Shown here: piece by piece, positions 104-21,509 of the stretch
Layout of the letters: each line of letters begins with the position of its first letter
How positions within the stretch are numbered: position 1 is the stretch's first letter
IMG/VR virus record: IMGVR_UViG_3300032342_000070
Coordinates: 1 to 23,426 of that record
DNA length: 23,426 bases
From: a virus
Reading direction: 5' to 3' (one strand)
Notes under the pieces: generated by a model
The model's input: the letters and a program-made list of their open reading frames with translations, nothing else
Databases searched by the model: none
Told to the model about the DNA's origin: nothing
Position numbers and translations under genes: made by a program

Positions 104-127
104 GACAAATCCTTTCCAGAAAGTGGC

Positions 128-541
128 TTAGGCTTTTTCCAGATCAATATCTCTTGCCCCGGTCAGGTAATGCAACGGCAAAACCTTGCGGAGTGAATAG
201 GTCGCGTCCGCATAGAGCCGCGGCCAGACATTTACCGCCTCCAGCAGCATCTCCTGCTCCAACGTCTCTAGGTCATCTACCACTATCGAATAAGGGGCTC
301 CAGCATCGACTGAGGGGCGCAAGTAGGGTGAATAGGCCCGGATGATCCCTTCGGTAAATGGGTAAAGGATGGCGCCTCGTCCGGGGATCCCGCTGTAGAA
401 AGCCGGATCGATAGACATCAAGGTATCGCCGACCCTTGCTCGATAGCGATGGTTGGTCACAAACGTCCCGTAGATCTCCACTAGCACCCCGCCGGCGTCG
501 GAGAGGTCTGCGTGAGAAAACCCAGTCAACGTGAGCGCCAT
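128..541 (-). CDS. Hypothetical protein after baseplate J, possible Ig/TIG-like beta domain
   Basis: A 137-aa protein starting at ATG 541 with AGGAGG directly upstream, overlapping the TAG stop of the baseplate J gene; the gap between the genes is nine bases. Residues about 8-90 have an alternating beta pattern of the kind seen in IPT/TIG Ig-like folds: a GG-V-I-G-F strand pair, then a Y-R-V-G strand, and a closing strand (APYSIVVDD). The last 40 residues contain a Trp/Tyr/Arg-rich stretch (VNVWPRLYADATYSLRKVLP) without a known match. Gene order suggests a baseplate-periphery or fibre-connecting protein in the place where P2-like phages carry gene I. That is inference from position only. The Ig-like reading is tentative. 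Confidence 0.8.
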   Translation of the reverse strand: MALTLTGFSHADLSDAGGVLVEIYGTFVTNHRYRARVGDTLMSIDPAFYSGIPGRGAILYPFTEGIIRAYSPYLRPSVDAGAPYSIVVDDLETLEQEMLLEAVNVWPRLYADATYSLRKVLPLHYLTGARDIDLEKA

Positions 542-550
542 ATCCGCCTC

Positions 551-1963
551 CTAGCTAATCACGATATTTTCATCTGTCGTTCGCGCGATCTGATCATCAA
601 GCAGAATGACATCACCGCTGGGCGTGACCAAGTTGATGTTGTACACCCCGGCGACGCTCATCACCTTCTTGATCAGCATCGCCCGCAGCACGTCTCCAGA
701 AATACCGAGCGTGTTGATGTAGTCGCGGATGGCGGTCTTGATCGAAGCGCGCACCTCCGCGTGATCGTAACCGTCGAGCACGGTGATGACCGCATTGACC
801 GTCTGGATGAGCACCTGGGGAGTCGTGACAATCACTAGCACCCCTGCTGCGCGGTAGCCGGGATAGTTCACCCGATCTGCTACGTCGCCGTCGATGATTT
901 TCTGGGCGAGCGCGATCAGCCCGGTGTATCGGGTGTAGTTCGCCGTGATGATCTCGCCCGTGACCAACGCTGGAGAAAAGACGATCTGCCCAGAGGCGGG
1001 GTTCAGCCAGTAGTCCACCCCGCGATCTAGCTCCCCGCGGTTGTTGCTTTCCAGGGTGAAGGCCACCGTATCCTTGACCGCCGGATAATTCAGGTGCAGC
1101 CGGATCTCCCCGCCCACCGCGGAGCCGGCTGGGGGACCGGCGAGCCCCTCGGTCACGATCTCGTCTACCACCTCCGCGGTCGACTCGGCCGCCCCGGTGC
1201 CGTCGTCGATATATGTGGTCACGTAGCCTGGATTGATCACGTCTTCGATCGCCTTGACGAACAGGATAGTTGCTCCTGTGGTTACGTCGACCGCCCCGCG
1301 CACCGCCTCCTCGATGGCCTCGATGGTCGAGCGCCCCAGCGAGGAGACAAATCGCTTGATCCGATTGCGCAGGCTGTCGTCGGTCTCCTTGTCCGAGCCC
1401 CAGGCAAAACTGCTCGGATTGGTGACGCTGTCGACCCCGGCGGGCCGGGAGACGAACCGGATGATGGTTGAGGCCACCACATTTCCAGAAATTCCGGGCA
1501 GCACCGCCTGGGCGGCGATCTGCCCGCTGTCCTTGCCTACTCCATGCCCGCTGATCTGCTCTGGGCTGGTGGGGGTGATAGAGCCGGCGACCGTGGTGAC
1601 GAACTCGGTGCCCGTTGAGGTGCGGACCTTGGTTCCGAGCGCAATAGCCACTGTGCCCACTGTCGTATTTCTGGAGAATACCAGCAGGCCGCTTGATTTC
1701 GACGCCTGATTTCTGGAAATGAGCCCGGGCTGGATCTCCCGGGCCCGTTCATCCAGATCGTCCCCGGTCGCCGTATCGATCGAAAACACCTGGCGGAGCA
1801 AGTACATTTGATAGGAGATCTCGTCAAGCTGTCGCGCGGCGGCAGCGATGATGTGCTTGACCACCGAGGTATCGGAGATGTCCGAGAGCCGGGTGCGTGT
1901 GACTACTTTGGCAATCATCTGAGCCAGAAACTGCTCATACCGCTTGGTGGTAAAAACCGGCAT
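551..1963 (-). CDS. Baseplate J-like wedge protein
   Basis: This 470-aa protein matches the baseplate J family (P2 gpJ, Mu gp47, related to T4 gp6), which forms the wedge ring joining the tail hub to the fibres. Supporting features: an N-terminal helical part, then TGDDLDERAREIQP near residues 66-79 (the family's G-x-x-LD-x-x-A motif), a strand-rich part with GTKVRTSTGTEFVTT (about 108-122), GNVVAST and GSDKETDDSLRNRIKRF (about 188-204), and a C-terminal helix-rich region with a G-V-Y-N-I-N strand near the end. A small insert around 300-345 carries a DY-x5-SGQIVFSP strand module, also seen in the 355-aa protein at 18940-20007. Start ATG has AAAGGAGAGG upstream; the gap to the previous gene is 11 bases. 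It carries three TTCCAGAAA-type words, two of them as rare AGA arginine codons (S-R-N). Confidence 0.93.
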   Translation of the reverse strand: MPVFTTKRYEQFLAQMIAKVVTRTRLSDISDTSVVKHIIAAAARQLDEISYQMYLLRQVFSIDTATGDDLDERAREIQPGLISRNQASKSSGLLVFSRNTTVGTVAIALGTKVRTSTGTEFVTTVAGSITPTSPEQISGHGVGKDSGQIAAQAVLPGISGNVVASTIIRFVSRPAGVDSVTNPSSFAWGSDKETDDSLRNRIKRFVSSLGRSTIEAIEEAVRGAVDVTTGATILFVKAIEDVINPGYVTTYIDDGTGAAESTAEVVDEIVTEGLAGPPAGSAVGGEIRLHLNYPAVKDTVAFTLESNNRGELDRGVDYWLNPASGQIVFSPALVTGEIITANYTRYTGLIALAQKIIDGDVADRVNYPGYRAAGVLVIVTTPQVLIQTVNAVITVLDGYDHAEVRASIKTAIRDYINTLGISGDVLRAMLIKKVMSVAGVYNINLVTPSGDVILLDDQIARTTDENIVIS

Positions 1964-1974
1964 TGCCCTCTCCT

Positions 1975-3966
1975 TTAGACCACGGCCTTCAGCATGAAAG
2001 AATCTGCAGATCCGCGCACTGTTACTGTGATACTCGCCGTGAGCGCATCCTCGGATTGCTCGAATTCCGCATCCTGGATGCTGACGATTCGGGGGTCCGC
2101 GCGAACCGTCTCGGAAATCCGAAAACGGATCAACTCAACATCTACCGTATTGAATCCGAGCCCGATCACCCGCTGTAGCCCAACACTCTTGTACAGCGTA
2201 TCAGTTCCGCGATCGGTTACCAAACGCTGAAGCACGGCTTGGGTGATGTTGGCTTTCCCCTCCACGATCTTGGCGTCCACCGAGCCCATCTCGGTGTCGA
2301 TGGCGATATCGTAGCGCGCCCCGCGCTCTCCGGTGTAGCCGACCGCTACCTCCAGGGCCAGATCGACTCCGAGCAGATGATTTTCGGCCGATTCGTCGAG
2401 CTTCACCCCGGCGATCGGTAGCACCGGCAGATCCAGGGTGGAGACCTGGTTCGAGGGGATGAGGATCTTGTAGCCGACGCCCAGCGCCTGGGGGAAAGGG
2501 CCGCTGTCCGCGCCGCTAGACGTTCCAGAAATCCGGCTACCCACCAGAGGCATTGAAGCCTGATCGTTGATGAAGGGCGGCTGCAGTCCATTCAGCGCGG
2601 CGATGTGCTGCCAGAGCCGCGCGTCTCCCAGGTACTGGGCGGCGAGAGACATGAGCGTGTCCCCCTGGCTGACGACCACCTGCTTGGCCGAGCGGAATTT
2701 GAATTCCCGCCCACCGAGGACCAGCTCGCCGTCGATGGCGATCTCCTCGCCCGGGGTGAGTTTGCTCCCCCAGCTACGCAGATCGGAGAAGGTCGACGGC
2801 GGGGTTGCTCTTCGCGCTTCTTCCCGGCGATCCGCGCTCACTCGTCGGCGCAGCTCCTGGTAGTTACGGATGTCAGCCATCACCGTGTCATGCCCGCGGG
2901 CCCACTTTGCTGGCGCGGTGCCCAATCGCTCCAGTCCATCCTGTACTTGGCGGATCTTCTGCCGGGCGACTTCCGGAAAATCCAGCGTCGCTCCTGTAGC
3001 GTCTCGCAGATCCTGGGCGGCGCCTTCAATGGCCAGCGCGTTCTCCAGCATCTCGATGGTGGTTTCCAGAAAAGCGTAGGGGGCCTGGATGAGCGCGGTA
3101 GTTCCGTCCAGAAAATCCCGGACTGCTTCCATGATGGTATTCACGCTGTCTAGGATAGTGTTGATGTTGGAGACGAACAGCCGCACTTCGTTGACCATCG
3201 CGGTCAGATCGTTGATTGCCCCCTGCACCCAATCCAAGCCCGACTTGATCCAGGCCATCGTGTCCTTGAGTTTGTCATAGAGGCTTTGATCTTCGGAGAA
3301 GTCCGCTTTACCCACGCTGGCCGGGCCCACCACGAGCAGCTCGATGTCATAATTGTACAGCAGCGGCTTGCCAGCGGCGCGGGTGAGGGTAAACCGCTGG
3401 GGAACGACTTCCCAATCTTCTTGATCTCGCGGATTGTGGAAAAAGAGCTTGGTCTCGTCGGAGGTTTCCGGGTTCTTCTTCAGATCCCCGTAAGTGCGGA
3501 AAACCGAGTCTTGAAGGTACTGAAAGTGCCGTTGTCCAGAAAGAGCGCCCACCCAAAAATTCTGGAGAGAACGGGAGTAGCTCCGATCGTCTGCGGTCAT
3601 GGACGGGGCCACGGTTTTTTTCAGGGGCAGGGTTCGCGGCTTCCAGCCGGTGTGCCCGGAGATCCGGATGGTGCGCTGCACGATGCCGTTTTCCTCGACG
3701 TAGAGCCCGCCGCCCTGGGTCGGGGTCACCTCGACGGTGAACGGCTCCTCCATGGTGTAGCTCTGCGGGGGAAGGACCAGCGGGAAAAGGAAGCGGCAGT
3801 CTCCGGCGTTCATGGCAGCTGCGACCTTCCCCGGGATTTGCAGCTCGAAGTAGTAGAGGAGCTTCTTGTAGAAAAAATCGTCTTTGTTCTGCTTCTGGCG
3901 GGTCAGTTCTTTGAGCCGCGCAATGACGCCTCCCGGTGCTCCGGGGACATTATCGATCAGCGCCAT
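1975..3966 (-). CDS. LysM-domain baseplate protein fused to a gp25/W-like wedge domain
   Basis: I place the start at ATG 3966 (MALIDNVPGAPG), which has GGAGG seven bases upstream; a longer frame to 4053 lacks a ribosome site and overlaps a leader hairpin. The product is 663 aa. Residues 1-215 are a beta-rich region, 225-385 mostly helical. Residues about 429-475 form a LysM domain (VVVSQGDTLMSLAAQYLGD, then LWQHIAALNGL), with the usual closing GYKILIPS at 498-505; phage LysM proteins of this kind join hub and wedge. Residues about 531-660 look like the gp25/gpW baseplate wedge fold: VEGKANITQAVLQRLVTDRG, then VGLQRVIG and ADPRIVSI, matching the family's Q-a-i-x-x-x-L-x-T-x-x-G and dpRI pattern. 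No separate gpW/gp25 gene lies next to J, so this fusion probably supplies it. It follows a likely promoter and hairpin leader. Confidence 0.88.
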   Translation of the reverse strand: MALIDNVPGAPGGVIARLKELTRQKQNKDDFFYKKLLYYFELQIPGKVAAAMNAGDCRFLFPLVLPPQSYTMEEPFTVEVTPTQGGGLYVEENGIVQRTIRISGHTGWKPRTLPLKKTVAPSMTADDRSYSRSLQNFWVGALSGQRHFQYLQDSVFRTYGDLKKNPETSDETKLFFHNPRDQEDWEVVPQRFTLTRAAGKPLLYNYDIELLVVGPASVGKADFSEDQSLYDKLKDTMAWIKSGLDWVQGAINDLTAMVNEVRLFVSNINTILDSVNTIMEAVRDFLDGTTALIQAPYAFLETTIEMLENALAIEGAAQDLRDATGATLDFPEVARQKIRQVQDGLERLGTAPAKWARGHDTVMADIRNYQELRRRVSADRREEARRATPPSTFSDLRSWGSKLTPGEEIAIDGELVLGGREFKFRSAKQVVVSQGDTLMSLAAQYLGDARLWQHIAALNGLQPPFINDQASMPLVGSRISGTSSGADSGPFPQALGVGYKILIPSNQVSTLDLPVLPIAGVKLDESAENHLLGVDLALEVAVGYTGERGARYDIAIDTEMGSVDAKIVEGKANITQAVLQRLVTDRGTDTLYKSVGLQRVIGLGFNTVDVELIRFRISETVRADPRIVSIQDAEFEQSEDALTASITVTVRGSADSFMLKAVV

Positions 3967-3992
3967 GTCCGCACCTCCGTGTTCCCGGGCGC

Positions 3993-4026
3993 CCCCTGGC
4001 GCTGTCGTGGACAACAACGCCAGGGG
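3993..4026 (-). promoter_or_regulatory. Hairpin in the 5' leader of the LysM/W gene
   Basis: CCCCTGGCG (3993-4001) and CGCCAGGGG (4018-4026) are a perfect 9-bp inverted repeat with a 16-base loop. It falls in the roughly 110-base untranslated leader between the putative promoter at 4086-4113 and the start codon at 3966. No run of T follows on the transcribed strand, so it is not a standard intrinsic terminator. It may stabilise the 5' end of the processed message or be a protein-binding site. Confidence 0.45.
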
Positions 4027-4113: not shown

Positions 4114-4133
4114 GATCCCATCTGCTGACTCCC

Positions 4134-5195
4134 CTAACCGTCCGGAAAGAGTAACTTATTCGACTCGATGGCACTGGTCCAGGCCGGTGCTCCGATCGGC
4201 GTCGTCGTCGACAACGTGGGCCCTTGCGGATGCGGATGGACATGTGAGTCAAAGGCGTCTAGCTTTGATTTCAAAGAGTTATACAGGGTTTTGAGATGCC
4301 CGGCGATGGCCGCCTTCACCGCCCCATCCCCCAGGGTGAGCTTGGCGGTGGCGGACTTGCCCTCCACCTTCAGCTCGGCTTCCTCCTCCAGAGTCACCTC
4401 CAGGCCGGTTTTCTGGAAAGCTAACCTTGCGACTTCCAAAGGGTTTGCTGGATCGGCCATGTCGTAGAAGACCACCTGGAGCTGGGCCTCCTTGGGTAGG
4501 TTTAGGGTCTGGTTGCCCTTGGCCGCATCCGTCGGGTAGAGCTTCTCCCGCCCGGTGCTATCCAGCGCCCCGTCGTTCCCCCGGCGGGTATCCACCACGA
4601 AGTTCCCCAGCCCATTCACGCCCCAATGCACCCCGTTGTGCCGGCGAAGGTCTGGGTTCCCATCCGCAATCTTCACCGCCATCCTTACCCCGAGGTCTCC
4701 TTCCGCGCGACCCAAATCCAGAATTGGATGCGGGAGCGATCCCAGGATGATGGGCATCTCCGGGGAATCGTTCAAAAACCCGATAAGAACGTGATCCCCG
4801 TCGACATAAGCGGGATCGGAGTTGGAGGCCAACTCCTTGGTGATGTCCATGGTCGTGGCCCGCGGAATCCAGATTCTGCCCGCATGGATCCCTGTCCCGC
4901 CCTCTTGCAGGACCATGACGTTTTGGAGCCCATGCCAGCGCTCTCCGGGGATAGAGGGGTAGACCAGCACGTCACAGTAAACCCCGACCGGCGTAGCAGC
5001 CTTGGTGCCGCTCTGTAGGGCCCCTTCTGGGCCATACGGATGTTGGAGGGCATCCAGGGCATAGCTTTTGACGACCACCCCCCGCAGAAGCAGCCCGTTT
5101 GTGCGGAGCGAAGGCCTGGTGCGCTTGGGCACGGCCGCCTGAAGGAGCGTGCCCGCTCGAGTACGCATCGGCCGAAAATTAGCATCTACGCCCAT
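4134..5195 (-). CDS. Tail spike / baseplate central spike protein (gpV-like)
   Basis: This 353-aa protein matches the P2 gpV / Mu gp45 / T4 gp5 spike family, which forms the trimeric membrane-piercing tip under the tail tube. Residues about 38-157 have the OB-fold pattern ending in GDHVLIGFLNDSPEMPIILGSLPHP, typical of this family. Residues about 225-290 are strand-rich (LEVTLEEEAELKVEGKSATAKLTLGD), consistent with a beta-helical needle. The C-terminus contains SHVHPHPQGPT (about 317-327), a His-x-His apex motif that binds a metal ion in known spikes. I chose ATG 5195 with GAGGGAA upstream; a TTG at 5216 in the same frame would overlap the preceding gene and lacks a ribosome site. The gap to the hub gene is 11 bases. 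No lysozyme domain is present. Confidence 0.88.
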   Translation of the reverse strand: MGVDANFRPMRTRAGTLLQAAVPKRTRPSLRTNGLLLRGVVVKSYALDALQHPYGPEGALQSGTKAATPVGVYCDVLVYPSIPGERWHGLQNVMVLQEGGTGIHAGRIWIPRATTMDITKELASNSDPAYVDGDHVLIGFLNDSPEMPIILGSLPHPILDLGRAEGDLGVRMAVKIADGNPDLRRHNGVHWGVNGLGNFVVDTRRGNDGALDSTGREKLYPTDAAKGNQTLNLPKEAQLQVVFYDMADPANPLEVARLAFQKTGLEVTLEEEAELKVEGKSATAKLTLGDGAVKAAIAGHLKTLYNSLKSKLDAFDSHVHPHPQGPTLSTTTPIGAPAWTSAIESNKLLFPDG

Positions 5196-5206: not shown

Positions 5207-6703
5207 CTACGCCCAATCGTATTCCGGTAATTGGGGTTCTTTATACCTGCTGGATATTTTCTGGAGCGCTTCCACCATTGACCAGTCGGACCCGATCCAG
5301 CCGCGGGTGACTCCGAGGTTGGTGCGCGTTCCCTGCCCAAAACTCCAGCTGTGCCCGACCGACTCCAGGTAATAGGTTTCCTGATCCTCCTCCCCGCGTG
5401 CGCCGGGGATACGGACCTTGCACCCGATCTTGATGTCCGGCCGACCCAGCCCGAGCCCCAGCGTCCCCGAAAGAAAGTAAGGGTTGAGGCAATGCCAGTC
5501 CTTAGCGATGAGTCTCTGCTGGTAGCAGAGCTTGGAGAAATCGAGATTGGTCTCATCCGGCGCCACAGAACTCTGGATGTCGAACCGGCGTAGCCCATGT
5601 CGGTGAATCGACTCAGCGTCAATGAGCGGGACGATAATGTTGAGCGAGTTGGCGCCGAAGGCCTCCTGGTGCAGCATGCTCGCGGTGTAGAAGGCGTTGA
5701 AGCGTTCCAGACCTGATCGGCCCACGTTGTTGGTGACAATCTGCTGGCGAGGCGTAACGAACAGCGGTAGATTGCCCCAGTCATGTTTGTATGCGTCGAT
5801 CTTGGGATCGATAATAGGGAAGGGCCGATCGCGGATCACCACCGCCATCTGCGTATCTTTGGGGAGCAGGGGAGATCCCGCCGCTAACTTGGGGCTAAAT
5901 GGATCGCCGTCGGGGAAGAGATCAGCGTACAATTCCGTGAATGCTGGATCGGAATGCTGCTGCGCTGTAGCCCAAAGCGTCCCATTCATTTCCATGTAGT
6001 TCGCGTTGAAGCACTTGCGGCGCGGGGTATTCTGGAAATGCTTTTCGCAGTAATTCACCCAACCAAGAAAGTTCCCACCCCCGTTGGGCATCGACAACGG
6101 CATGTCCCAATCAATCCCCGCATGGGTGCCGATGGCGTTCATGAAAGACCATAGATAAGCCTTTACGGCTGCACTTGGCGCGCCTTGAATCTGCGGCATG
6201 GCCTGGAAGACCGACGTGGCTGTTGCGTCCGAGATGATATCGTTGGTCATGTACGGCGAGAACCAGATCGGGGTGATCTCCCAGATCTTGGCGAAATCTT
6301 TTCCCGTAATGGTGTACGTCTCAGCCGTCGCTCCGGTCCCGCCCACGGACTGATTTCTGCGGATCTCATCTACCAGTCCACGCATCACATGCCAGGGTTG
6401 ATCCTGCCGGTAGAAGGTGATGTCAATCCAGTCATCGTCGCAAACATGCTTGGACAACTCGAAGGCAGCCCGGGAGGGCTTGAGGTCGAGCTGGAAAGAG
6501 CCGCTCGGCGCTCCCAGCGTCTTTTGGGTAGAGACCGCAACCAATGCCGGACTGCGCGCGTCCGCGCGTTTTCCAGAAAATGGGTAGGCGCTAGCATTCC
6601 CCGGGGTCATGATAAGCGGGTCATTCCCGTGGGAATAGAGCGTAACCTCTACCCAGCTGGTCTCACTGCCCTGGAAGCCTGGCTTGTATCCGCTTGCTAG
6701 CAA
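5207..6703 (-). CDS. Baseplate hub protein (gpD / gp27-like), TTG start
   Basis: A 498-aa protein directly between the tape measure and the spike, where contractile phages encode the hub (P2 gpD, Mu gp44, T4 gp27). It begins with a strand-rich part (ETSWVEVTLYSHGND), then an early domain with DDWIDITFYRQDQPWHVMRGLVDEI, typical of hub proteins that describe a local beta barrel. The C-terminal part returns to beta structure (KIGCKVRIPGARGEEDQETYYLESVGHSW is part of it, residues about 430-460), the usual second barrel. The frame opens with TTG at 6703, the codon straight after the TAA of the tape measure gene and in the same frame; the next ATG is 31 codons in and has no ribosome site. No strong Shine-Dalgarno is visible, so translation must rely on coupling, or on read-through of TAA. 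Hub assignment rests mainly on order and fold pattern. Confidence 0.8.
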   Translation of the reverse strand: MLASGYKPGFQGSETSWVEVTLYSHGNDPLIMTPGNASAYPFSGKRADARSPALVAVSTQKTLGAPSGSFQLDLKPSRAAFELSKHVCDDDWIDITFYRQDQPWHVMRGLVDEIRRNQSVGGTGATAETYTITGKDFAKIWEITPIWFSPYMTNDIISDATATSVFQAMPQIQGAPSAAVKAYLWSFMNAIGTHAGIDWDMPLSMPNGGGNFLGWVNYCEKHFQNTPRRKCFNANYMEMNGTLWATAQQHSDPAFTELYADLFPDGDPFSPKLAAGSPLLPKDTQMAVVIRDRPFPIIDPKIDAYKHDWGNLPLFVTPRQQIVTNNVGRSGLERFNAFYTASMLHQEAFGANSLNIIVPLIDAESIHRHGLRRFDIQSSVAPDETNLDFSKLCYQQRLIAKDWHCLNPYFLSGTLGLGLGRPDIKIGCKVRIPGARGEEDQETYYLESVGHSWSFGQGTRTNLGVTRGWIGSDWSMVEALQKISSRYKEPQLPEYDWA

Positions 6704-9109
6704 TTAGTTACCCATTCCCGTGCTAGGAGTCTCTGCCGTGAGGGCTTTGTAGTAGTCCCAGAAACCCAGGCCTTCCTTGGAGCTGAGCTTCTCGACGACT
6801 TTGGATAGCTCCTCGAATTTCCCGGTGAGCAATTTCACCATGCCGTTATCGCCAGCGAGATTGCTAAAAGCCTTGGTCAGGTTAGCCGCCGCGCTATCCA
6901 TGGCGTTGACGATCCCGACCATCTTGGCTCCAGCCTCAGTTTGCTTATTTTCGATTCGCGCCTGCTTTTTTATACTTTCTGGAACCACAGTCGAGGCCGC
7001 GTCCGCGAGTCCACCGGGAGTAGCTATGTCCTTGGCTTCTGCCGCCCCCAGCTCCCGCCGAGATTTCTCTCGATCCACCATGACCTGCTCCTCGGGGGTG
7101 AGCGCTTGTCCTGACAGTTGCTTGTCTAGCATCATCATTTCCTGCTGGCTCATGTCGATACCCATCTGCTGTTTCATCAAGTTCCGCAGCATGAGGCGAC
7201 CCGCAGCCCTGTCCCCCCCGGTCATCCCCCGAATCCGCTTCATCACCTCGCCCATCGGGCCGCCCATGGCGCCGCCCACGCCCTGCTCGCGCATTTGCTG
7301 GCCGGCGGACTCCATTTTGAGGATCGTCTGCTCGTACTCAGCAGATCCACCCTTGCCGGTGAAGCCGAAGGCCTGGAGGGTCATATAGTCCATCCCGGTA
7401 GCGGGGCCGCCTCGGCTGGCCATACCCTGCACGTACTGCCCGACCCCGCGGGCCATCTGCATCGCCCGGGTGCCGGCGATACCCGCCTTGGAGAAGCTCT
7501 CGGCCATCCCCTTGATCGCTTCCGGGGCAACCGGAATGCCAGTCGTCTCCCACTGTTTGATTCCCTCGGCCATTGACTGCATATAATCGGACAGCTCGCT
7601 TCCTGACAGTCCCAGCTCCAATGCATCCCCGATGGTACGAGCGAGCGCCTGATCCGCTTGACCCCCCATCCCGACCATTCCCCCACGACGCCCCGCCTGG
7701 AGGAAAGCCCCGGAGGTCTCGGCGCTCACCCCGTACATGGTCTGTGCCGCGAAAGAGGTGCGGATCATTCCCTGGCGCTGCATTTCTGGAAAAGTTCCGC
7801 CCCCGGCTTGCACCACCTGCATCGCCTGCTGGAGCGCAGCTTGCTGGTTTATCCCGCCTTGCACACCCCACTCGGTAATCTCGGCAACAGGGGAGGCAAT
7901 GCGGGCGCGCGCCGCAGCAATGGCGCGCGCCTTCTTGGCTTCCGCGTCCTGCGCTGTGCTTTCCCGCAGCTTCTTGCGGTTTCCTTCCCAGTCCCCCTCC
8001 TGCCGTACTTGTTCCCGGGCCCATTCCGGCTCGCCTACCGCGTTTTTCCAGAACTCCCTTTGCCTTTTATTTGCGCGACGCATCGCCAAAGGCATGTCTT
8101 CATCCTGGAGCCCCATCCCAGCTCCTTGTGGAGATCTGTACCAGGCAGCGAGGGCAGCGCTTGGATTTTTAGCCAGAAACTGTTTCCGAAACCTCGGCAT
8201 TTTTTCGGCCAACGCTTCTGGAGAAAACCAGGTATCGGCTAACTTTTGCCCACTTAGCGTTTCTTGCTGCCGTACCTGCTCTGCTCTAGCCGTTGTGCTC
8301 GCCAGATAGCGTCGTGAGGCAAAGGCTCCCGTATACGGGGCTGCAGTTACCTGCGCCCTCTGGTACTCCAGCGATTTTCCGGCGTAGCCCATCGCCGTAC
8401 TCATCATCCCGCCCAGCATCGGACTGATAGACGAAGCGAGCTGCGCCAGTCCCTGCGCTCCAGAAAAAGGTGCCTGCGCAGCGGCGCCAGCAATTCCAGC
8501 TCCTCTCCGCCACAGCCCGCTCACCGCGCCCCCCGCCATCTGCCCCAGTCCCTGGCGCCACATCCCCGGCCCCCGCTGGAGAAAGAGCGGGGCAATCCCC
8601 GGCATCGCAGTCTGGGCAAAACCCTGAGTGAAGGCCCACTTTGCATGCCGCGCATCGGCCTTGTGCTGATCATCTGTCCGCTTGGCCGCGTCGTCGGCGG
8701 CCTGCTTGCGTTTCTCGTCGGTCTTGAGCAGCTGCTCGTTTGCCCGGTTCAGATCCTGAGCGGCCTTGGCCTCTGACTGGTAGGCCTTCTCCAGATTCTT
8801 GACCGCCCCTTCCAGCCCGGAGGATTCTTCTTGTACCATCTTCAGAGAGACGGCCATTGCCTTGTAGATATTCGAGGACTTGTCCTTCATCCCCGACATG
8901 GTCTCGAATAAGGTGGCTTGGGTTTTGGCGAGTTTGCTGATCTGGCTCTCGAGCCCCTGAACCTTGGTCTGCGCTTCCTGATAACTCTTGGCTTGTTCCT
9001 TCATCCCCTTCAAGGAGTTTTCATTGACCTTGAGAATTTTCTGGAGTGCTTCGTCGAAGCCCTTGGCGTCGGCGGTGATGACTACCCCGGTTTTAATTTC
9101 ACCTGCCAT
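6704..9109 (-). CDS. Tail tape measure protein
   Basis: An 801-aa protein with the composition and position of a tape measure, which sets tail length and is ejected ahead of DNA. Residues 1-165 are a long charged coiled-coil region (many Lys, Glu, Gln; e.g. YQEAQTKVQGLESQISKLAK). Residues about 175-275 are Gly/Ala/Met-rich and hydrophobic (GLGQMAGGAVSGLWRRGAG, GAAAQAPFSGAQGLAQLASS), the membrane-active segment typical of the family. The remainder is helical, Gln/Met-rich. The ATG at 9109 is preceded by GGAGG eight bases upstream, which lies inside the end of the chaperone frame; the gap is three bases. At about 1.5 angstrom per residue it predicts a tail of roughly 120 nm. No lytic transglycosylase or peptidase motif is visible. 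Confidence 0.9.
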   Translation of the reverse strand: MAGEIKTGVVITADAKGFDEALQKILKVNENSLKGMKEQAKSYQEAQTKVQGLESQISKLAKTQATLFETMSGMKDKSSNIYKAMAVSLKMVQEESSGLEGAVKNLEKAYQSEAKAAQDLNRANEQLLKTDEKRKQAADDAAKRTDDQHKADARHAKWAFTQGFAQTAMPGIAPLFLQRGPGMWRQGLGQMAGGAVSGLWRRGAGIAGAAAQAPFSGAQGLAQLASSISPMLGGMMSTAMGYAGKSLEYQRAQVTAAPYTGAFASRRYLASTTARAEQVRQQETLSGQKLADTWFSPEALAEKMPRFRKQFLAKNPSAALAAWYRSPQGAGMGLQDEDMPLAMRRANKRQREFWKNAVGEPEWAREQVRQEGDWEGNRKKLRESTAQDAEAKKARAIAAARARIASPVAEITEWGVQGGINQQAALQQAMQVVQAGGGTFPEMQRQGMIRTSFAAQTMYGVSAETSGAFLQAGRRGGMVGMGGQADQALARTIGDALELGLSGSELSDYMQSMAEGIKQWETTGIPVAPEAIKGMAESFSKAGIAGTRAMQMARGVGQYVQGMASRGGPATGMDYMTLQAFGFTGKGGSAEYEQTILKMESAGQQMREQGVGGAMGGPMGEVMKRIRGMTGGDRAAGRLMLRNLMKQQMGIDMSQQEMMMLDKQLSGQALTPEEQVMVDREKSRRELGAAEAKDIATPGGLADAASTVVPESIKKQARIENKQTEAGAKMVGIVNAMDSAAANLTKAFSNLAGDNGMVKLLTGKFEELSKVVEKLSSKEGLGFWDYYKALTAETPSTGMGN

Positions 9110-9112
9110 GCG

Positions 9113-9523
9113 TCAATCCTCCAGGTTGGGCACTCGCCCCTCCTCCAGGTCCTGCTCCCATTGATCGATCAACTCGTCTCCCGTCTCCGGTGGCTCCCCG
9201 AGCGCCTCGTTGAGCGCGCGAAGTTGCCGACTCAGCTCCTGCCGCTCGCGCATCCGGGTGTCCTCGTTCTCCAGCTCGGCCTCGACCTCCCGTTTGCGGA
9301 TGAGGAGGTCTTCGACCATTTCTTGGTTCAACTCTGCTACGCTCTGTTCCAGAAAGAGCGGGTGATTCGGCGGCAGCTTGTACTTCTGGCTCCACCAGCG
9401 CCGGAGCCCGGTGATCCCGCTCTTTACCTCGCGTTCAGCCCGCCGCCGTACTCTTCCCGTATCCGAGAAAGGTGCTTTCGTGGTTTGCCACCTCCATGTA
9501 CAGCTCCTGGAGCAAACGCACAT
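9113..9523 (-). CDS. Downstream frame of tail assembly chaperone, probably reached by ribosomal frameshift
   Basis: This frame overlaps the end of the 170-aa chaperone gene by 89 bases as drawn from its first ATG (9523). That ATG has no ribosome site, and the N-terminal part (MCVCSRSCTWRW) looks like out-of-frame translation. From about 9466 on it encodes a highly charged helical protein (VEAELENEDTRMRERQELSR), as expected for the T part of G/GT-type chaperones, which recruits the tape measure. The frame is +1 (equivalent to -2) relative to the upstream gene. A shift-prone TTT-C (9470-9467), where Phe-tRNA could slip from UUU to UUC, or GGG-A (9458-9455), would give a product of about 277 aa. 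It stops three bases before the tape measure, the usual place. Confidence 0.72.
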   Translation of the reverse strand: MCVCSRSCTWRWQTTKAPFSDTGRVRRRAEREVKSGITGLRRWWSQKYKLPPNHPLFLEQSVAELNQEMVEDLLIRKREVEAELENEDTRMRERQELSRQLRALNEALGEPPETGDELIDQWEQDLEEGRVPNLED

Positions 9524-9947
9524 CGTTCAGCACCAGCAAATCTTCTGCCCACTTCGGCCGCTCGGTGAGACTGACGGCGAGGTGAGCGATCATCAAATTG
9601 ATCTCGCCAGTATAGGCGTCCAGGTTCGACGGCGAGATCCCCGCGGCCAAGTTGGAGCGCATGATCCCGACCAGCTGACGATCGCGGATGGAGAGCACCT
9701 TGTTGGTGAACCTTCCTTTCCAGATTTTGCCGCGACCATCTTTCCAGTTGAACTCGAAGGTACACTCGCGTTGCGCACGCGGGTCGTCCGCTTCTTTTTC
9801 TGGAATGGCACCAGTGGCGAGGTTATCGACCTTCTGGCTGATCGCTTCGCGCAAACCCTCGATGTCTTCTGGCACCAGATTGCGCAAATGCGCTAGATTG
9901 GTTAATTTCTCGTAATTTTCCGGGGATATTCCCACTTTTTCGCTCAT
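9435..9947 (-). CDS. Tail assembly chaperone, upstream frame (gpG-like)
   Basis: I place the start at ATG 9947 (MSEKVGISPENYEK), with AGGAG seven bases upstream; the frame extends to an ATG at 9995 that has no such site. The 170-aa product is acidic and helical, and lies between tail tube and tape measure, the place of lambda gpG, P2 gpE and Mu gp41, which bind the tape measure and are absent from the finished virion. Residues about 60-100 hold a short strand-rich part (CTFEFNWKDGRGKIWKGRFT) common in this type of chaperone. Its last codons overlap the next frame, allowing a longer frameshifted product. It is the first gene after an intrinsic terminator and a likely promoter. Confidence 0.82.
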   Translation of the reverse strand: MSEKVGISPENYEKLTNLAHLRNLVPEDIEGLREAISQKVDNLATGAIPEKEADDPRAQRECTFEFNWKDGRGKIWKGRFTNKVLSIRDRQLVGIMRSNLAAGISPSNLDAYTGEINLMIAHLAVSLTERPKWAEDLLVLNDVRLLQELYMEVANHESTFLGYGKSTAAG

Positions 9948-10551: not shown

Positions 10552-12858
10552 TTATGCCGTCTGGCGGATCGTCACCAGGTGGACGGTGTTTTTGACGAAG
10601 TTGACCGGGATGATCGGCGCCATCTCGACCTCCACGTCGAGCACGTCAACCGCCAGATCAACCCCCAGGCTCCTCCAGTCCACCAGCACCAGCGAGTCAA
10701 CCAGCAACCCGAGAGTGCCCAGTGCAACGCCCTTGGCCGCGTTGATGGTGCCGGCGAACCCGCGTTTGCCCACCGCAAACTCCATGTTGGTCCTGAAGTT
10801 GAAACAGGCGAAGTTCACCGCGGCGTTGACCGAGCCCTCGCTGTAGGCCAGGTTGTTGGAAGAGAGGTGGGTGGTCACGTTGCGGACGAATCGGCGACCC
10901 ACGCCCTCGACGTTTTCCAGAAAACAGATCCCGCCCTGGATCATTTCCTCTGCGTCGTCGACGGGGTTCCAGCTCAGATCCTGCCGGAGGGCCAAGATGT
11001 TGGCGTACTTGAAGGTCAGCGAGGTGCCGATCGGAGCGCCGGCTTGCATGCCCGCGGCGATAGCCGCGGTGAAGGGGGGCAAGAACTCTTGCCGCTCTCC
11101 GGCGGTGTTGTACCGCTCGATGGCCTGGGGAAAGGCGCGGATATGCCGCGTGTTCAGATCCACCGCCTGCGCCTTCGCCTCCGCCTTGCTCGCCACGTCG
11201 GTAAGCCCGGCGTTGAGCAGCCCGACGAACCCGTCGCGCTCCGAGCGGCCGATGCCGCACATATAGGCGCAATGAGCATCAAGCGCGGCGGCGACCGCCG
11301 GATCTCCGCTCAGCACCACGATCGAGTTGACCCGGATCTTCTTGAGCAGGTTGAGCGCGTTTTGCCAGTTGGAAAAGATGGTAGTGCCTTCGCTTCCGCC
11401 AGCAAGGAAGGTCGCGGCCACGGTGTTGGACGGGGCGCCGCCCTTGGCGCCGGAGGCCTTGGTCGCCGCGACGTACTGCGAGCTGGTGCTGATCCACTCG
11501 ATGCACGCCCAGAGGTTGGCGTAGAAGGCTGGGTTGGCCGGGGAGAGGCAGTTCTGCACGCCCTGGGCCCCGGTGGTCACGTCGAGATCGGCCGGGGAAA
11601 AGGTCGTCTTCCCGGTGACCAGGGTAAAGACAAATCCGGCGGCGGAGGCGTAGCGGGCGTTGAAGTAGTCGGCGCATTTCTGGAGCGTCGACTGCACCGC
11701 CACCGAAGTCCGGCCGGCGTTGGCCGAGAAGGTCACGGTCTGTGCCGCCTCCACCTCGCCGAGGGCGAGGTACTGCAGCTCCGAGAAGTTCCCGACGCCG
11801 GCTACCGGGGTGGTGCCGGTGAGCGTGATCTTCTCCATCTGGATCGCCCCAGCGGTCGAGAGCCCGACAAGCAGCAAACGCTTGGTGCTCGCTCCACTGG
11901 AAACCGCGGTCACCGGCAGGTTGGCCACGTAGCCAGAGGCGAACTTGGCCAGGCCCTTGACCGGGTTGGCTCCGGCGGCGACCGTGAGCAGCGTCGCGCC
12001 GCCGCTGTGCTTGGTCATGGTCACCGTGCCGACAAGGGTGCCGACGACGCGGACTCCGAGCACCCGGGAGAAGGTCTGCGCGCCGTTGACCAGCGTGGTG
12101 CCGTTGAGCGTGAGGGTCTCGCGCACGGCCGCCGAAGAGGCATCCAGGCCGTAGACGATGAGCGAAAGCGCAACGTCCGAAGCGCTGGAGGAGACCACAT
12201 CCACCAGGCCGTCGGCGCCCAGCTGGCTGGTGATCTCGCCGTCTAGGCCCAGGTTGGCCCGGGTAGCCTTGGCCACGATCGCCCCGCTCGACTCCACCTC
12301 CGCGGTCATCGCGTCCCAACCGTTGGTGGGCTTGATGTACTTCAAATTGAAGAACACGTCCCCGCCCACGTCATCGCCGGCCTCAACCTGATCCTCGAAG
12401 GTGATCGTGATCAGCTTTCCCTGCACCGTGCCGTCGGCGATGGCCACGTTGATCTGGGATGTGAAAGCGCCATAGTCGACGCTGGAGAGCGAGAGCGCGT
12501 TGCCGTAGGCGTTTCCGAGCAGCGCCGCCGACTGGGTGGCCGGGTTGATCTTCATGGCCACCACTTCTTGCGCGCCGGCTTGGATGTCCGGATCCTTGGA
12601 GGGCGCGAACAGCATGTCCGCCACCTCCCGCAGATCTCCGGAGTGAAACAGCTGCTTGCCCTTCTCGGGCTTGTTCAGCCGTAAGAAGTCCTTGGGCTCG
12701 GTCATTGCCGATGCCGGTTTCCCGCCAACTGCCGTACCGAGAACCGCGATGATCCCCGAAGCCCCCAACCCCACCTGCTCCAGGCCCGAAGCATCGACTT
12801 GCGAGTAGCTTCCCGGTGCGCTGATCAGCCGTCCGTTGAAAAAGATACTGGTTGCCAT
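10552..12858 (-). CDS. Tail sheath protein, enlarged by a beta-rich insert
   Basis: A 768-aa protein of the contractile sheath family. The N-terminus has the usual FNGRLISAPGSYSQVDASG and a hydrophobic GIIAVLGTAVGG strand; the C-terminal domain has the typical polymerisation region (FLENVEGVGRRFVRNVTTH about 646-664, then NFRTNMEFAVGKRGFAGTI and DVEVEMAPIIPVNFVKNTVH), ending in strands used to link neighbouring subunits. Sheath proteins are often 380-660 aa; this one is longer because residues about 200-390 form a Gly/Thr/Val-rich beta insert with two similar copies of one unit (about 229-281 and 327-378). Such inserts usually lie on the outer surface of the tail. Start ATG is preceded by AAGGAGCG. 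Ten bases separate it from the tube gene. Confidence 0.92.
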   Translation of the reverse strand: MATSIFFNGRLISAPGSYSQVDASGLEQVGLGASGIIAVLGTAVGGKPASAMTEPKDFLRLNKPEKGKQLFHSGDLREVADMLFAPSKDPDIQAGAQEVVAMKINPATQSAALLGNAYGNALSLSSVDYGAFTSQINVAIADGTVQGKLITITFEDQVEAGDDVGGDVFFNLKYIKPTNGWDAMTAEVESSGAIVAKATRANLGLDGEITSQLGADGLVDVVSSSASDVALSLIVYGLDASSAAVRETLTLNGTTLVNGAQTFSRVLGVRVVGTLVGTVTMTKHSGGATLLTVAAGANPVKGLAKFASGYVANLPVTAVSSGASTKRLLLVGLSTAGAIQMEKITLTGTTPVAGVGNFSELQYLALGEVEAAQTVTFSANAGRTSVAVQSTLQKCADYFNARYASAAGFVFTLVTGKTTFSPADLDVTTGAQGVQNCLSPANPAFYANLWACIEWISTSSQYVAATKASGAKGGAPSNTVAATFLAGGSEGTTIFSNWQNALNLLKKIRVNSIVVLSGDPAVAAALDAHCAYMCGIGRSERDGFVGLLNAGLTDVASKAEAKAQAVDLNTRHIRAFPQAIERYNTAGERQEFLPPFTAAIAAGMQAGAPIGTSLTFKYANILALRQDLSWNPVDDAEEMIQGGICFLENVEGVGRRFVRNVTTHLSSNNLAYSEGSVNAAVNFACFNFRTNMEFAVGKRGFAGTINAAKGVALGTLGLLVDSLVLVDWRSLGVDLAVDVLDVEVEMAPIIPVNFVKNTVHLVTIRQTA
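11725..12174. repeat. Two diverged copies of a beta unit within the sheath gene
   Basis: The sheath residues 229-281 (bases 12016-12174) and 327-378 (11725-11880) share the order L-x-V-x-GL, E-x-x-TL-x-GTT-x-V-x-G-x-x-x-F, then a V/L strand, and GTVT or QTVTF. About 45 residues separate the copies. They are similar in protein but visibly diverged in DNA, so the duplication is old. They make up most of the extra length of this sheath. Confidence 0.6.
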
Positions 12859-12867: not shown

Positions 12868-13140
12868 TTAGTTGGTGGGGGTAGCCATGAATTTCTGGAA
12901 CGCTTCACGCCACCCCAGGACGGTCAGCGGCCCTAGCCCCCCGCGCTTGACGTGGTTGCGGAAGCCCGCCAACTGATCGAAGCGCTTGCCCGAAAGCCGG
13001 GTCCAGACCTCGAAGCTCACTGTCATCCGGGAAGCGGGCTTCTCGGTTTCTGGAACGGGTTGAACAGCGGCGGCGGCAGGCTCCTCAACCGGATCGGCGG
13101 GAGCTGCGGACTCAGGGATTTTAGATTTGATCTCCGGCAT
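12868..13140 (-). CDS. Small Ala/Pro-rich protein between tail terminator and sheath
   Basis: A 90-aa protein starting at ATG 13140 (AGAGGAAA upstream). The first 38 residues are low complexity, rich in Ala, Pro and Glu, and look disordered. The last 50 form a compact basic and hydrophobic part (TVSFEVWTRLSGKRFDQLAGF, then LTVLGWREAFQKFM). It overlaps the end of the tail terminator gene by 20 bases and stops nine bases before the sheath start. Unassigned. Its place next to the sheath suggests a small neck or sheath-associated protein, but nothing in the sequence proves this. Confidence 0.72.
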   Translation of the reverse strand: MPEIKSKIPESAAPADPVEEPAAAAVQPVPETEKPASRMTVSFEVWTRLSGKRFDQLAGFRNHVKRGGLGPLTVLGWREAFQKFMATPTN

Positions 13141-13813
13141 CGGTTTCCTCTCCGTCGTCGAAATAGGGAATTACGTTGGTATTGACCTCCCCAACATCAC
13201 TCGGGCTCCCACTTTTGTCAACGGCAATGCCCGATATCTTGAAGGCCTTGGTCAAACGAGAGGCGCGATTGATCTGCTGCAACTCGCGTTCGCAGTAGAA
13301 GATAATCCGGCGCAGGAAAAGATGCTCGGGCATGTACGCCGGGTCAAGCATCAACTCCTCGCCGCTTACCTTGATGCTGGCCAGCCCCTGCTCGGTGAGC
13401 TGCTCCAGCCCGGCAAGCAAGATCATCTTGGCGATCTCGTAGTAGTAGGCGGTGGTGTCCGGGTGCTCGGAAATGACAGTCAGGAAATAGGTGTGCTCCC
13501 AGATGGCCACGTTGACATCGCAGCGAAAGTATTTGTCGTCCTCATCCATCACCATCCCGCCGTCGTCCCCGAGCACGGTCTGGCTTTCGCCCTCGCTGCC
13601 CAGGGTGATGGCGATAGCCGGGTACTTGTTGTCCTGGCGAGAGTAGCCGTTGACCAGCGCGACCGGGTGGGCGGCGAAGAAGGTCTTGATCGCCCCGACC
13701 TCGGCCTCGGCCAGGCCGTAATTTTCCAGAAAGATGTCTTCCAGAATGAGCGGGTCGGCGACAATGGCGTCGAATCCGTCTTGGAGTAGATCGATGAGGT
13801 AGCGTTGGATCAT
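13121..13813 (-). CDS. Probable tail terminator / tail completion protein
   Basis: A 230-aa mixed alpha/beta protein one small gene upstream of the sheath, where contractile phages encode the protein that caps the tail tube and sheath (T4 gp15 or lambda gpU type). It opens with a helix (QRYLIDLLQDGFDAIVADPL), has strands around NKYPAIAITLGSEG and YFRCDVNVAIWEH, a long helix (TTAYYYEIAKMILLAGLEQL) and a strand pair (FLRRIIFYCERELQQ), the order of secondary structure in tail terminators. The acidic C-terminal 35 residues look flexible. The ATG overlaps the preceding TGA (ATGA), so translation is coupled. Assignment is from order and pattern, not from a diagnostic motif. Confidence 0.72.
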   Translation of the reverse strand: MIQRYLIDLLQDGFDAIVADPLILEDIFLENYGLAEAEVGAIKTFFAAHPVALVNGYSRQDNKYPAIAITLGSEGESQTVLGDDGGMVMDEDDKYFRCDVNVAIWEHTYFLTVISEHPDTTAYYYEIAKMILLAGLEQLTEQGLASIKVSGEELMLDPAYMPEHLFLRRIIFYCERELQQINRASRLTKAFKISGIAVDKSGSPSDVGEVNTNVIPYFDDGEETDAGDQI

Positions 13814-14631: not shown

Positions 14632-15452
14632 TCATGCAGCTCCGGAATGAAGTCGTACCGCACCATGGCCTGGATGGGTAATCCGCGGGGATCTCCTCGC
14701 GGAGTTGTCGGCTTCGGCGTTTTGAATTTGATCGTGGTCTGCCGGATGATGTGCGGGTGCTCGACCACCAGCACCACGGGATGACAGAGGTAGTGGAGAG
14801 AGAGCTTGGTGCCGCTCGCGGGAACGGCGCCGGGTCGGAACCTCACGTCCCCGCCTTCGATGACAAAATCCGTATCGGGTTTGAAAACTCGGGAAAAGGA
14901 TCGCAGGTAGTTCATGCCGGTGATGAGATAGCGCCCGTGTACCGTGTCGGTGCCGTCGGCGATGATCGTCTCCCCGTAAATGATCTCGCTTTCCAGGATG
15001 GTCAGCTTGTCGTAGTAGCCGATCTTGTTCTCGTGCCTCACGGTCAGCATCATGCTGCCCGCCATCCAGTTTCCCAGTTTGTCCCAGGGGCTGTATTCGT
15101 TCTGGAGGGCGGTAACGACTCCGCGGATGGGCATTGCGTTGTTGGCTTCTAGAATCCGCTTCTGCACCTCATCCATCGTGCCTATTTGCGCATAATCAGG
15201 CGGAGTATCTCCTCCGAAATAATGCCAGCCTGACCCCTTGCACAACGGGCAATTGGGATCCGGCTGCTCGGTCTGAATCACCACTGGCTGGCAGGGACAG
15301 ATGGCTGCTCGCTCCCAGGCGATCAGATACCCCTTGGTTTCGACCAGCAGCGCGAAAGAATCGGGCAAAAAATCCGCCCGAGACATTGACTCCTTCATCC
15401 CGCTGGGAATTCCAGAAACTGGAAATCTAGGGCGAGTCGGAGAGATGGTCAT
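14628..15452 (-). CDS. Neck/connector-region protein with a Cys4 zinc-knuckle-like motif
   Basis: A 274-aa protein of the connector cluster. Residues 52-71 read CPC...NCPLCKG: Cys52, Cys54, Cys68 and Cys71, followed by a GSGW turn, a likely metal-binding knuckle. After residue 110 the protein is strand-rich (MMLTVRHENKIGYYDKLTI, LSLHYLCHPVVLVVEH). No enzyme motif is visible. It is coupled by ATGA overlaps to genes on both sides, so it is made with the neck proteins. The coupling at 15452 and GGTGG upstream favour this start over Met19 or Met23. The exact job within the neck is unknown; a scaffold or virion-joining role is inferred from neighbours. Confidence 0.7.
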   Translation of the reverse strand: MTISPTRPRFPVSGIPSGMKESMSRADFLPDSFALLVETKGYLIAWERAAICPCQPVVIQTEQPDPNCPLCKGSGWHYFGGDTPPDYAQIGTMDEVQKRILEANNAMPIRGVVTALQNEYSPWDKLGNWMAGSMMLTVRHENKIGYYDKLTILESEIIYGETIIADGTDTVHGRYLITGMNYLRSFSRVFKPDTDFVIEGGDVRFRPGAVPASGTKLSLHYLCHPVVLVVEHPHIIRQTTIKFKTPKPTTPRGDPRGLPIQAMVRYDFIPELHE

Positions 15453-16918: not shown

Positions 16919-17160
16919 GATTGCGCCTCGTACTGGGCGGAGAGGCTATCGCCGGCGAGCGGGGCCTCCCGCATCCGGATCTGTCGGCTCCCCAGCTCCT
17001 CATACCCGGTATCCCAGCTAGCCACTATCCGCACTCCGTTTCTCCAGATTGACACCGTTCCAGAAAAATATTCATAGCTCGTCCAGAAAATCCGATTCGC
17101 CCCGTCGGGGGCGGGGGTGAGTAGCTCCCGGAGCGAATTCCTGAAAATCACAATGGCCAT
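16915..17160 (-). CDS. Small beta-domain protein, tandem paralogue of the 146-aa protein
   Basis: I place the start at ATG 17160 (MAIVIFRNSLRELL) because the N-terminal extension from 17214 (MQRVGSGLVQ) reads like out-of-frame sequence overlapping the 86-aa gene. The 81-aa product has DGANRIFW, TVSIWRNGVRI, SWDTGY and EAPLAGDSLSAQY, matching the neighbour's DGVNTEFY, VQVFLNGRLKI, AWDDGF and EAPLVGDSLEVEY. The ribosome site is weak (GGTGG at ten bases), so coupling to the 86-aa gene, which it overlaps by 13 bases, is likely. Structural role inferred. Confidence 0.68.
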   Translation of the reverse strand: MAIVIFRNSLRELLTPAPDGANRIFWTSYEYFSGTVSIWRNGVRIVASWDTGYEELGSRQIRMREAPLAGDSLSAQYEAQS

Positions 17161-18217: not shown

Positions 18218-18230
18218 GCTGGCCTCCTGA

Positions 18231-18943: not shown

Positions 18944-20007
18944 TCGATCTCCTCGTCCTTTCGTCCAAAGAAAGATGCACAACCCATCTCGCCAACGAAC
19001 GGTATGTCGTTTTCCAGCCAGCAGCGAATCTCCATAGCGTAGGCTCCCTGGAGAGTGGTTGCCGCTCTGCCCGAGTAGTCATAGTACAAAGTGCAGCGTG
19101 GCTGGGTAGGCATGCGCCAGGCATCGCCTGCCCCCGTGTCAGCAGTTGCCTCGCGCTCACTGCGTGAAGAATCTTTCTTCAGGTCGTCCAGTGTCTGGTA
19201 ATACTCAGGGGTGGACAGCGGCTGCATACCAGCCCCAATATTTCCCCAGAGCTGAAAGATGATGGTGTCCTTCATGCCCATGTCTTTGGCGTACATGACC
19301 TTGATCACGTTTGAAGTCCAGACGTAACCAGTGGGCGCAGCGGCCTTGAACAAACTGGTGCGTGCGTACGAGTAGTCGGCGGTAACGACCTCTATTCCAG
19401 TCAGCGCCGTCTTGAACGTGATTGCCCCGGTCGTGTAGTTCACCGAGTAATCCCCCGAAGTCGTTCCTGCTGGGTGCTCGGTCTTGGCGATGTTATCTAC
19501 TTTGACCACAGGGGCGTAGTCTTCCCGAAAATCCCGCTCCCGAAATACTTTCCCATGCATGACATCGATCCAGAAGCGCGAGACCGCCGGAGTGTAGGTC
19601 GTGTGGTTTCCAGAGTCGGTGAGTGTTTCTCCTGTCACCCGGGCACTGTCCTGATACCAGGTTTCTTTCTTGGTGAAGTCTGACGTGTAGACATCGTAGC
19701 GGCGCCCTTCGAGTGGAGTTTGTTCGACAATGCCATGGATTTGTACTGTTTGATCCAACGATACTGGCTGAATCTCTTGGGGCAACGGAACTCCCGTGTG
19801 CGTGGCCACAAGACCATCCAGAATCGTCTCGTCCCCTTCTGACAAAGCCGCCTTGAACCAGATGTCACAAGCATCACCAGCCGTGTCGATGCGGTCCAGG
19901 ACGGTGACGATGGCGCTGGACTGAATCTCTTGCAGGAGGCGATCCGTGGCTACGATGTGATTGGGAAAATCATCCTGAATCGAGTAAGCATATTTTTGGT
20001 CGGCCAT
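18940..20007 (-). CDS. Virion structural protein (355 aa)
   Basis: Start at ATG 20007, with GGAGAG upstream and a TAATG overlap with the fibre gene; the frame begins 15 bases earlier, inside the previous gene. Residues about 8-75 form a recurrent phage structural pattern: DRLLQEIQSSAIVTVLDRID, then DIWFKAALSEGDETILDGLV, ending in HTG. The middle has a strand module (SVNYTTGAITFKTALTGIEVV) shared in style with baseplate J. The rest is beta-rich with Tyr/Trp (TIIFQLWGNIGAGMQPLS), without an enzyme motif. Its place directly after a fibre-like gene and before the accessory cluster suggests a virion surface or head-associated protein. Specific role unknown. Confidence 0.82.
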   Translation of the reverse strand: MADQKYAYSIQDDFPNHIVATDRLLQEIQSSAIVTVLDRIDTAGDACDIWFKAALSEGDETILDGLVATHTGVPLPQEIQPVSLDQTVQIHGIVEQTPLEGRRYDVYTSDFTKKETWYQDSARVTGETLTDSGNHTTYTPAVSRFWIDVMHGKVFRERDFREDYAPVVKVDNIAKTEHPAGTTSGDYSVNYTTGAITFKTALTGIEVVTADYSYARTSLFKAAAPTGYVWTSNVIKVMYAKDMGMKDTIIFQLWGNIGAGMQPLSTPEYYQTLDDLKKDSSRSEREATADTGAGDAWRMPTQPRCTLYYDYSGRAATTLQGAYAMEIRCWLENDIPFVGEMGCASFFGRKDEEIE

Positions 20008-21041: not shown

Positions 21042-21042
21042 A

Positions 21043-21366
21043 TCAGCTCCTCATGACGATTTGCTCATTGCTGTCATAAACAAAGCCACCGGCGATATCG
21101 AAAATGGCGTCGTTGATGTCGAACCCACCAGAGACCAATTCAGAAAGCGTGTACGTCCCGGCAACCGGATCGGTGAGCACCAGGTTGTTTTCCGCATCTC
21201 GTTCCGCGACCACCGCCTCGTCATCGGAGGTAGTATTCTGGAAAGTCACCCCCCGCGCATCGACAAAATCCTCATTCTGATCCAGCGAGGTTGGAAACTC
21301 GTCGGTCTCGACCCCGCCGCTGGCAGGGTCCTCCAGTTTGAGGGGGTGGACGCGATCCTTGGTCAT
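21043..21366 (-). CDS. Small virion-associated protein (107 aa)
   Basis: A 107-aa acidic protein with ATG at 21366 (GAGG upstream). It opens DRVHPLKLEDPASGG, a common opening in small phage structural proteins found next to fibres, then GVETDEFPTSLDQNEDFVDA and short strands (NLVLTDPVAGTYTLSEL, GGFVYDSNEQIV). No catalytic motif. It lies after two terminator hairpins and before the fibre-like gene with a one-base gap, so it probably forms part of the same fibre or surface assembly. Specific role not known. Confidence 0.75.
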   Translation of the reverse strand: MTKDRVHPLKLEDPASGGVETDEFPTSLDQNEDFVDARGVTFQNTTSDDEAVVAERDAENNLVLTDPVAGTYTLSELVSGGFDINDAIFDIAGGFVYDSNEQIVMRS

Positions 21367-21410
21367 TGCCTCAACCTAGCCCAGAACGGACGTGCGGACA
21401 AGTCGCAGAG

Positions 21411-21458
21411 AAAGAAAGCAGTGGCCCCAATGACCGGGTAAATCGGGGGCCACTGCTT
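21411..21458 (-). terminator. Second intrinsic terminator after the 535-aa gene
   Basis: AAGCAGTGGCCCC (21416-21428) and GGGGCCACTGCTT (21446-21458) are a perfect 13-bp inverted repeat with a 17-base loop. On the transcribed strand it is followed by TTTCTTTCTC. Very strong stem; it backs up the hairpin at 21461-21509. Confidence 0.8.
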
Positions 21459-21460
21459 CC

Positions 21461-21509
21461 AGAAAAGCGGAGTCCTTCCAGCAAGGGGAATCCAGAAAAA
21501 CTCCGCTTT
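21461..21509 (-). terminator. First intrinsic terminator after the 535-aa gene
   Basis: AAAGCGGAGT (21464-21473) and ACTCCGCTTT (21500-21509) form a 10-bp stem with a 26-base loop; on the transcribed strand the stem runs into TTTTCT. It lies 13 bases after the TAA of the 535-aa gene. It holds one copy of the TTCCAGAAA word at its edge (21457-21465) and a near copy in the loop (21489-21498). Confidence 0.65.

Follow-up and report, generated by a model that had tools for sequence, protein, structure and literature searches.

A dense DNA word with lineage-specific spellings in a clade of uncultured tailed phages

Most known DNA words that are conserved across a genome, Chi and uptake sequences among them, come from bacteria. 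The stretch of viral DNA analysed here (the window, 23.4 kb) contains a nine-base word, TTCCAGAAA, in many copies. The genes of the window are those of the tail and baseplate of a phage with a contractile tail; PHROGs identify sheath, baseplate wedge, hub and tail lysin. It has no megablast match among INPHARED phages, and its tail sheath (10552-12858, minus strand; PHROG 279, E 2e-42) is only ~30% identical to those of isolated phages. The sheath gene was used as the query for relatives; viral contigs yielded relatives, four of them of 97-110 kb and a fifth of 109 kb. The word-bearing group is one of uncultured tailed phages.

The word in the window

The window contains 18 copies of TTCCAGAAA or its reverse complement TTTCTGGAA (11 forward, 7 reverse), which is its commonest 9-mer. 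Nine of them (6 + 3) extend to the 10-mer TTTCCAGAAA. Both totals agree with an earlier note on this DNA, as does the strong excess over chance: an order-2 Markov model predicts 0.24 copies of the 9-mer and 0.06 of the 10-mer, a ~70-80-fold excess for the 9-mer, and the reversed control word is absent. Synonymous codon shuffling within each gene, which the earlier note had suggested, yields 2.7 +- 0.8 copies of the 9-mer with a maximum of 5 in 40 shuffles; even this null is inflated, because shuffling preserves codon frequencies that are themselves raised by the word. The core of the word is TCCAGAA (TTCTGGA on the other strand), with 38 copies in both orientations between 115 and 21497, 28 of them then followed by A and 22 with T before.

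Reading each copy confirms that the word occurs in both orientations and in all frames as unrelated peptides (FLE, FSG, FQK, PE, SRN). FLE is encoded on the plus strand at 3064-3072 (10-mer from 3063) in a baseplate/hub gene, at 9347-9355 in a 136-aa gene, at 10915-10923 (10-mer from 10914) in the tail sheath gene and at 13724-13732 (10-mer from 13723) in a 230-aa gene. FSG is encoded at 6571-6579 (plus; 10-mer from 6570) in the tail lysin gene and at 17058-17066 (plus) in a 99-aa gene, and SG at 15410-15418 (plus) in a virion structural gene. Minus-strand copies encode FQK at 4410-4418 (10-mer 4410-4419) in a 360-aa gene and at 12892-12900 in a 90-aa gene, and PE at 6976-6984 and 7783-7791 (10-mer 7783-7792) in an 801-aa gene, at 9797-9805 in the tail-chaperone gene and at 13047-13055 in the 90-aa gene. 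ISRN, with an AGA codon, is encoded at 1710-1718 (minus; 10-mer 1710-1719) in the baseplate wedge gene. The other copies, all on the plus strand, are the first, at 114-122 (10-mer from 113), one at 1483-1491 (10-mer from 1482) in the baseplate wedge gene, one at 2523-2531 in a baseplate/hub gene, and the last, at 21457-21465, outside the larger genes. That the word twice forces AGA is true of the 7-mer core, which wholly contains two of the window's 18 AGA codons; only one lies within a full 9-mer copy (1710).

Two trivial sources of the copies are ruled out. The sites have unrelated flanks and are therefore independent, not copies of a recently duplicated element. A codon or amino-acid artefact is excluded by the synonymous shuffling and by the use of several frames.

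Distribution, conservation and spelling in relatives

The enrichment, first described across late phage genes, is present there in the window but is not limited to them: the word covers the whole ~100 kb genomes of relatives. TCCAGAA has 207 copies in the 96.8 kb of G001, 198 in the 109 kb of G007, 94 in the 55.7 kb of G002 and 34 in the 21 kb of G003. Reversed-word controls in these relatives number 2-15 (15 in G001, 7 in G007), and codon-shuffle nulls are 65 in G001, 61 in G007 and 29 in G002. The full 9-mer has a density of 768 per Mb in the window and 1025-1085 per Mb in G007 and G001. Core words are spaced at about one per 500 bases, evenly and in a Poisson-like manner along the genomes (gap CV 0.88-1.02 in G001, G007 and G002). 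Some 90% of sites lie within genes (185/207 in G001, 182/198 in G007). All six frames are used and the strands are balanced in G001 and G007; the G002 fragment (55.7 kb) has a strand bias of 65:29. The word has the same or the opposite orientation to the gene in ratios of 100:85 in G001, 86:96 in G007 and 60:66 in G009. Close pairs show a slight same-orientation excess at 8, 11 and 22 bp, but shuffled genes likewise favour the same orientation, and helical phasing is not used as evidence here.

Conservation extends to single sites. Of 24 window words that lie in aligned orthologues, 18 are intact in G001, compared with 24% for any 7-mer; positions are thus shared between relatives, a comparison that had also been proposed beforehand. 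Between G001 and G007, at 65% nucleotide identity, 63/136 words (46%) are kept, compared with 9% of any 7-mer. Retention so far above that of ordinary 7-mers within one spelling indicates selection or active maintenance acting on individual sites. Where the spelling changes, from G007 to G009 or G006, only 4-5% of words are kept. One-mismatch neighbours of the word show no systematic depletion; this argues against near-words having been converted wholesale. The use of all frames and both strands, the codon-shuffle null and the conservation of sites support the original view that the pressure is on DNA and not on protein.

Word-bearing groups spell the word differently around a common core, CTGGA or CCGGA. 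The window's group uses WTTTCTGGAA (5'-3'). L081 and L091 have TCTGGAA/GTCTGGAA, L085 has AACTCTGGA, and L092 has AGTCTGGA (33 copies in 14 kb), which is weaker in G019 and G508. G009 has AATTKCTGGA, with a similar spelling in G020; G017 has NGCTGGA with loose flanks (CTGGA, 800 vs 423); G006 has TCCGGA (319 vs 75). The site is asymmetric, varying 5' of CTGGA with little fixed past +1, and the flanks are asymmetric in all spelling groups except TCCGGA. The more distant relatives G011, G012, G016, G018, L067, L068 and G506 do not have the word. A conserved 556-aa protein, which only its position marks as portal-like, gives a tree with the window's spelling group (TTTCTGGAA) as a single clade with 100/100 support; overall, spelling labels are clustered (11 changes vs 15 in shuffles). 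The word is a dialect of phage lineages. It is real, strong, lineage-specific and selectively maintained in this uncultured clade.

A different sequence, CTCGAGC, is enriched 2-5-fold in several frames in G506 (L380-L384), G018, G004, L094, L097 and G010, all of which lack a strong CTGGA word. It is wholly absent from G001, G006, G007 and G017. This is suggestive of a further dialect in word-less relatives, although other members avoid the palindrome within CTCGAGC.

Sampled bacteria and restriction pressure

The densest bacterial or archaeal genome sampled has ~106 copies of TTCCAGAAA per Mb, against 768-1085 in the phages. The sample comprises ~470 genomes: 24 from assorted phyla, 199 from the phylum of an Acidobacteria MAG and 249 from the phylum of a Nitrosospira MAG. 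The word is at least 7-fold rarer in these bacteria and goes with the phage lineage. The earlier note had proposed a check for enrichment in the host genome; among the sampled genomes, which may not include the host, none reaches phage density. A homology search of genome contigs with the tail sheath gave no match, and no tRNA genes that might indicate a host were found in the phages. Among the matches listed, paired-word pattern scans of genomes and viruses gave scattered matches, which is weak evidence on the host, and a literature search by the word itself gave unrelated work.

Restriction pressure leaves a separate signal. Each near-complete genome lacks several 6-base palindromes that are expected 15-70 times, and the missing set differs between phages. 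Missing palindromes include GAGCTC, CTCGAG, CTGCAG, GGATCC and GTCGAC (G001, G006, G007, G017, G020; L026-L051, L349-L354, L363-L365); in the window, GAGCTC and GACGTC are absent, with 10.6 copies of each expected. These absences strongly suggest that the phages are under restriction pressure and infect different hosts. CTGCAG and GGATCC are absent from G001; GTCGAC is absent from G007 and present 42 times in G001. These differences point to hosts with different restriction systems. Since G001 and G007 nevertheless share the word, it does not track the restriction-modification repertoire, as would be the case for a word that is the phage's own and not part of the host's repertoire. The word does not itself behave as a restriction target, being enriched whereas many 6-base palindromes are wholly absent.

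A candidate reader and known genomic words

To our knowledge, the word matches no known class of genomic word. The explanation we favour, with a probability of about 0.45, is that the phage lineage encodes a sequence-specific DNA-binding protein that recognises the word and so marks or organises phage DNA. We infer that a phage protein reads the word, although a host factor could do so instead. Such a protein would bind phage DNA at hundreds of places, and binding might serve to package this DNA selectively, to compact or recombine it, or to shield it from nucleases that attack host DNA. A narrower version can be offered only tentatively: the word may be a self-recognition code, in which a phage protein reads a lineage-specific word every ~500 bases and uses it to handle phage DNA differently from that of the host; the dialects would then arise as word and reader co-evolve.

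The candidate reader is a ~216-aa protein encoded near RuvC, one gene apart where gene order was examined; the G007 copy is at L036:6259-6909. It is present in all five word-bearing relatives of ~100 kb (G001, G006, G007, G009, G017) and in the replication-half contigs G507 and G508, where the word is weaker (AGTCTGGA/CTGGAAAG), i.e. in 7/7 word-bearing relatives covering the region. The word-less G506 (85 kb) ends at RuvC. Presence and absence do not single out the candidate, because no word-less relative covers the region, and it is one of many genes common to these phages. It has no match in INPHARED. Its N-terminus has a weak Myb/SANT match (PF00249, E 0.03, below the cut-off). Foldseek likens its helix-turn-helix to the MerR-type winged helices of TorI, RacA, TnrA/GlnR and BldC (E ~0.7-2); with a structure model of moderate confidence (pLDDT 71) and best PDB matches at E ~0.7-1, a MerR-type winged helix is proposed at low confidence. 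Four conserved cysteines look like a zinc ribbon. The putative recognition region is conserved around RAxxALGQKWKR, and the residues just before it vary by spelling group (SHFYR/SHFRR, TQLRR, EQLKR, CQLKR, SQLLR). This pattern is consistent with a reader whose core is fixed and whose flanks drift, though it is no proof of one. G017 contains a second, shorter paralogue of the candidate at 19671-19940 (L348), consisting of the helix-turn-helix part only.

Reading by the host would most plausibly resemble Chi, with a RecBCD/AddAB-type exonuclease-helicase, of the host or of the phage, attenuated at the word so that word-rich phage DNA survives and recombines; the spelling would then follow each host's enzyme. 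The Chi sites of E. coli (GCTGGTGG) and Pseudomonas (GCTGGCGC) share GCTGG and differ between species in their ends (PMC5959072), and the constant CTGG(A) of the phage word resembles this shared part. Both are short, asymmetric and spread over the genome, and Chi is selected in phages: it is in excess in lambdoid phages, and phages without RecBCD inhibitors over-represent it, with a reported excess of ~2.5-3-fold (PMC3784561). The phage word, at ~70-80-fold over the Markov expectation for the 9-mer, is far stronger. It also varies on the other side of CTGG, since the known Chi pair has a constant 5' GCTGG and a variable 3' end, and its two orientations are equally used. No enrichment was found among the sampled bacteria, which may not include the host, and the phages encode a recombination set of their own: by profile, SSB-like, SbcC-like and RuvC-like proteins and, judging by its sequence, probably a RecA-like one. 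A Chi-like role is the second most probable explanation, and a phage-encoded DNA-binding protein is favoured over it. Host uptake or transfer words carried by the phage would be the other host-read option. The DUS dialects of Neisseriaceae keep a core CTG and change their flanks with phylogeny, at low thousands per genome (PMC3630211); the phage word likewise has a constant core (CTGGA/CCGGA) with lineage-specific flanks, and its ~1000 per Mb is not far from that density. Here, however, the word is in phage genomes, whereas DUS words are enriched in naturally competent bacteria, where ComP reads them. Tailed phages enter cells by a route of their own, and no sampled bacterium has the word at such density. 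A host-read word of either kind may be involved, the uptake kind being the least probable explanation of all.

Two further systems bear comparison. HIP1 of cyanobacteria (GCGATCGC) is iterated and is replaced by alternative words in relatives (PMC4390886), as the phage word is; in a process of this kind, a methyltransferase and mismatch repair would turn near-words into words. A search of G001 and G007 by motif pattern alone gave no plausible methyltransferase, near-miss words are not systematically depleted, and the phage word is asymmetric and not, unlike HIP1, a GC-rich palindrome. This origin is improbable. Transcription control like that of mycobacteriophage stoperators, where a repressor halts elongation at many sites, is more improbable still. 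Cluster A phages have many stoperators per genome, with spellings that vary among relatives together with the binding protein (PMC6550527), and the reader is a monomer with two DNA-binding domains on an asymmetric site (PMC9283540); our candidate also seems to have two such domains. A phage has up to ~30 stoperators, however, mostly in short gaps between genes and with one direction relative to transcription (PMC6550527, PMC9283540), whereas the phage word has ~200 sites per genome, ~90% of them within genes, no orientation to transcription (100:85, 86:96, 60:66) and no known repressor.

The word points to an unrecognised step in phage DNA handling. A clade in which a dense word forms dialects yet is conserved site by site is a natural experiment on joint change in a DNA-reading protein and its hundreds of sites. 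The word could further serve to connect metagenomic fragments that come from phages of the clade.

The replication and recombination genes of these phages, by profile, also include a DnaB-type helicase, primase, family A polymerase, clamp and UvsW-like helicase. In G007, the helicase and DNA polymerase carry intein or homing-endonuclease domains (L035:2106-4646, L035:13893-16712), and the terminase of G009 (G009:64128-66689) appears on reading to have an intein-like insertion. The replication region also contains a near-adjacent pair, a MoxR-type AAA ATPase (L035:8603-9637) and a CobT-like VWA protein (L035:10130-11932). Lastly, G002 (L043-L045) has second repeated words, ATGTGGTA with 32 copies (1.3 expected) and AACTTGCC with 24 (1.8 expected); these are missing from the top lists of other relatives and are perhaps a local repeat array in G002.
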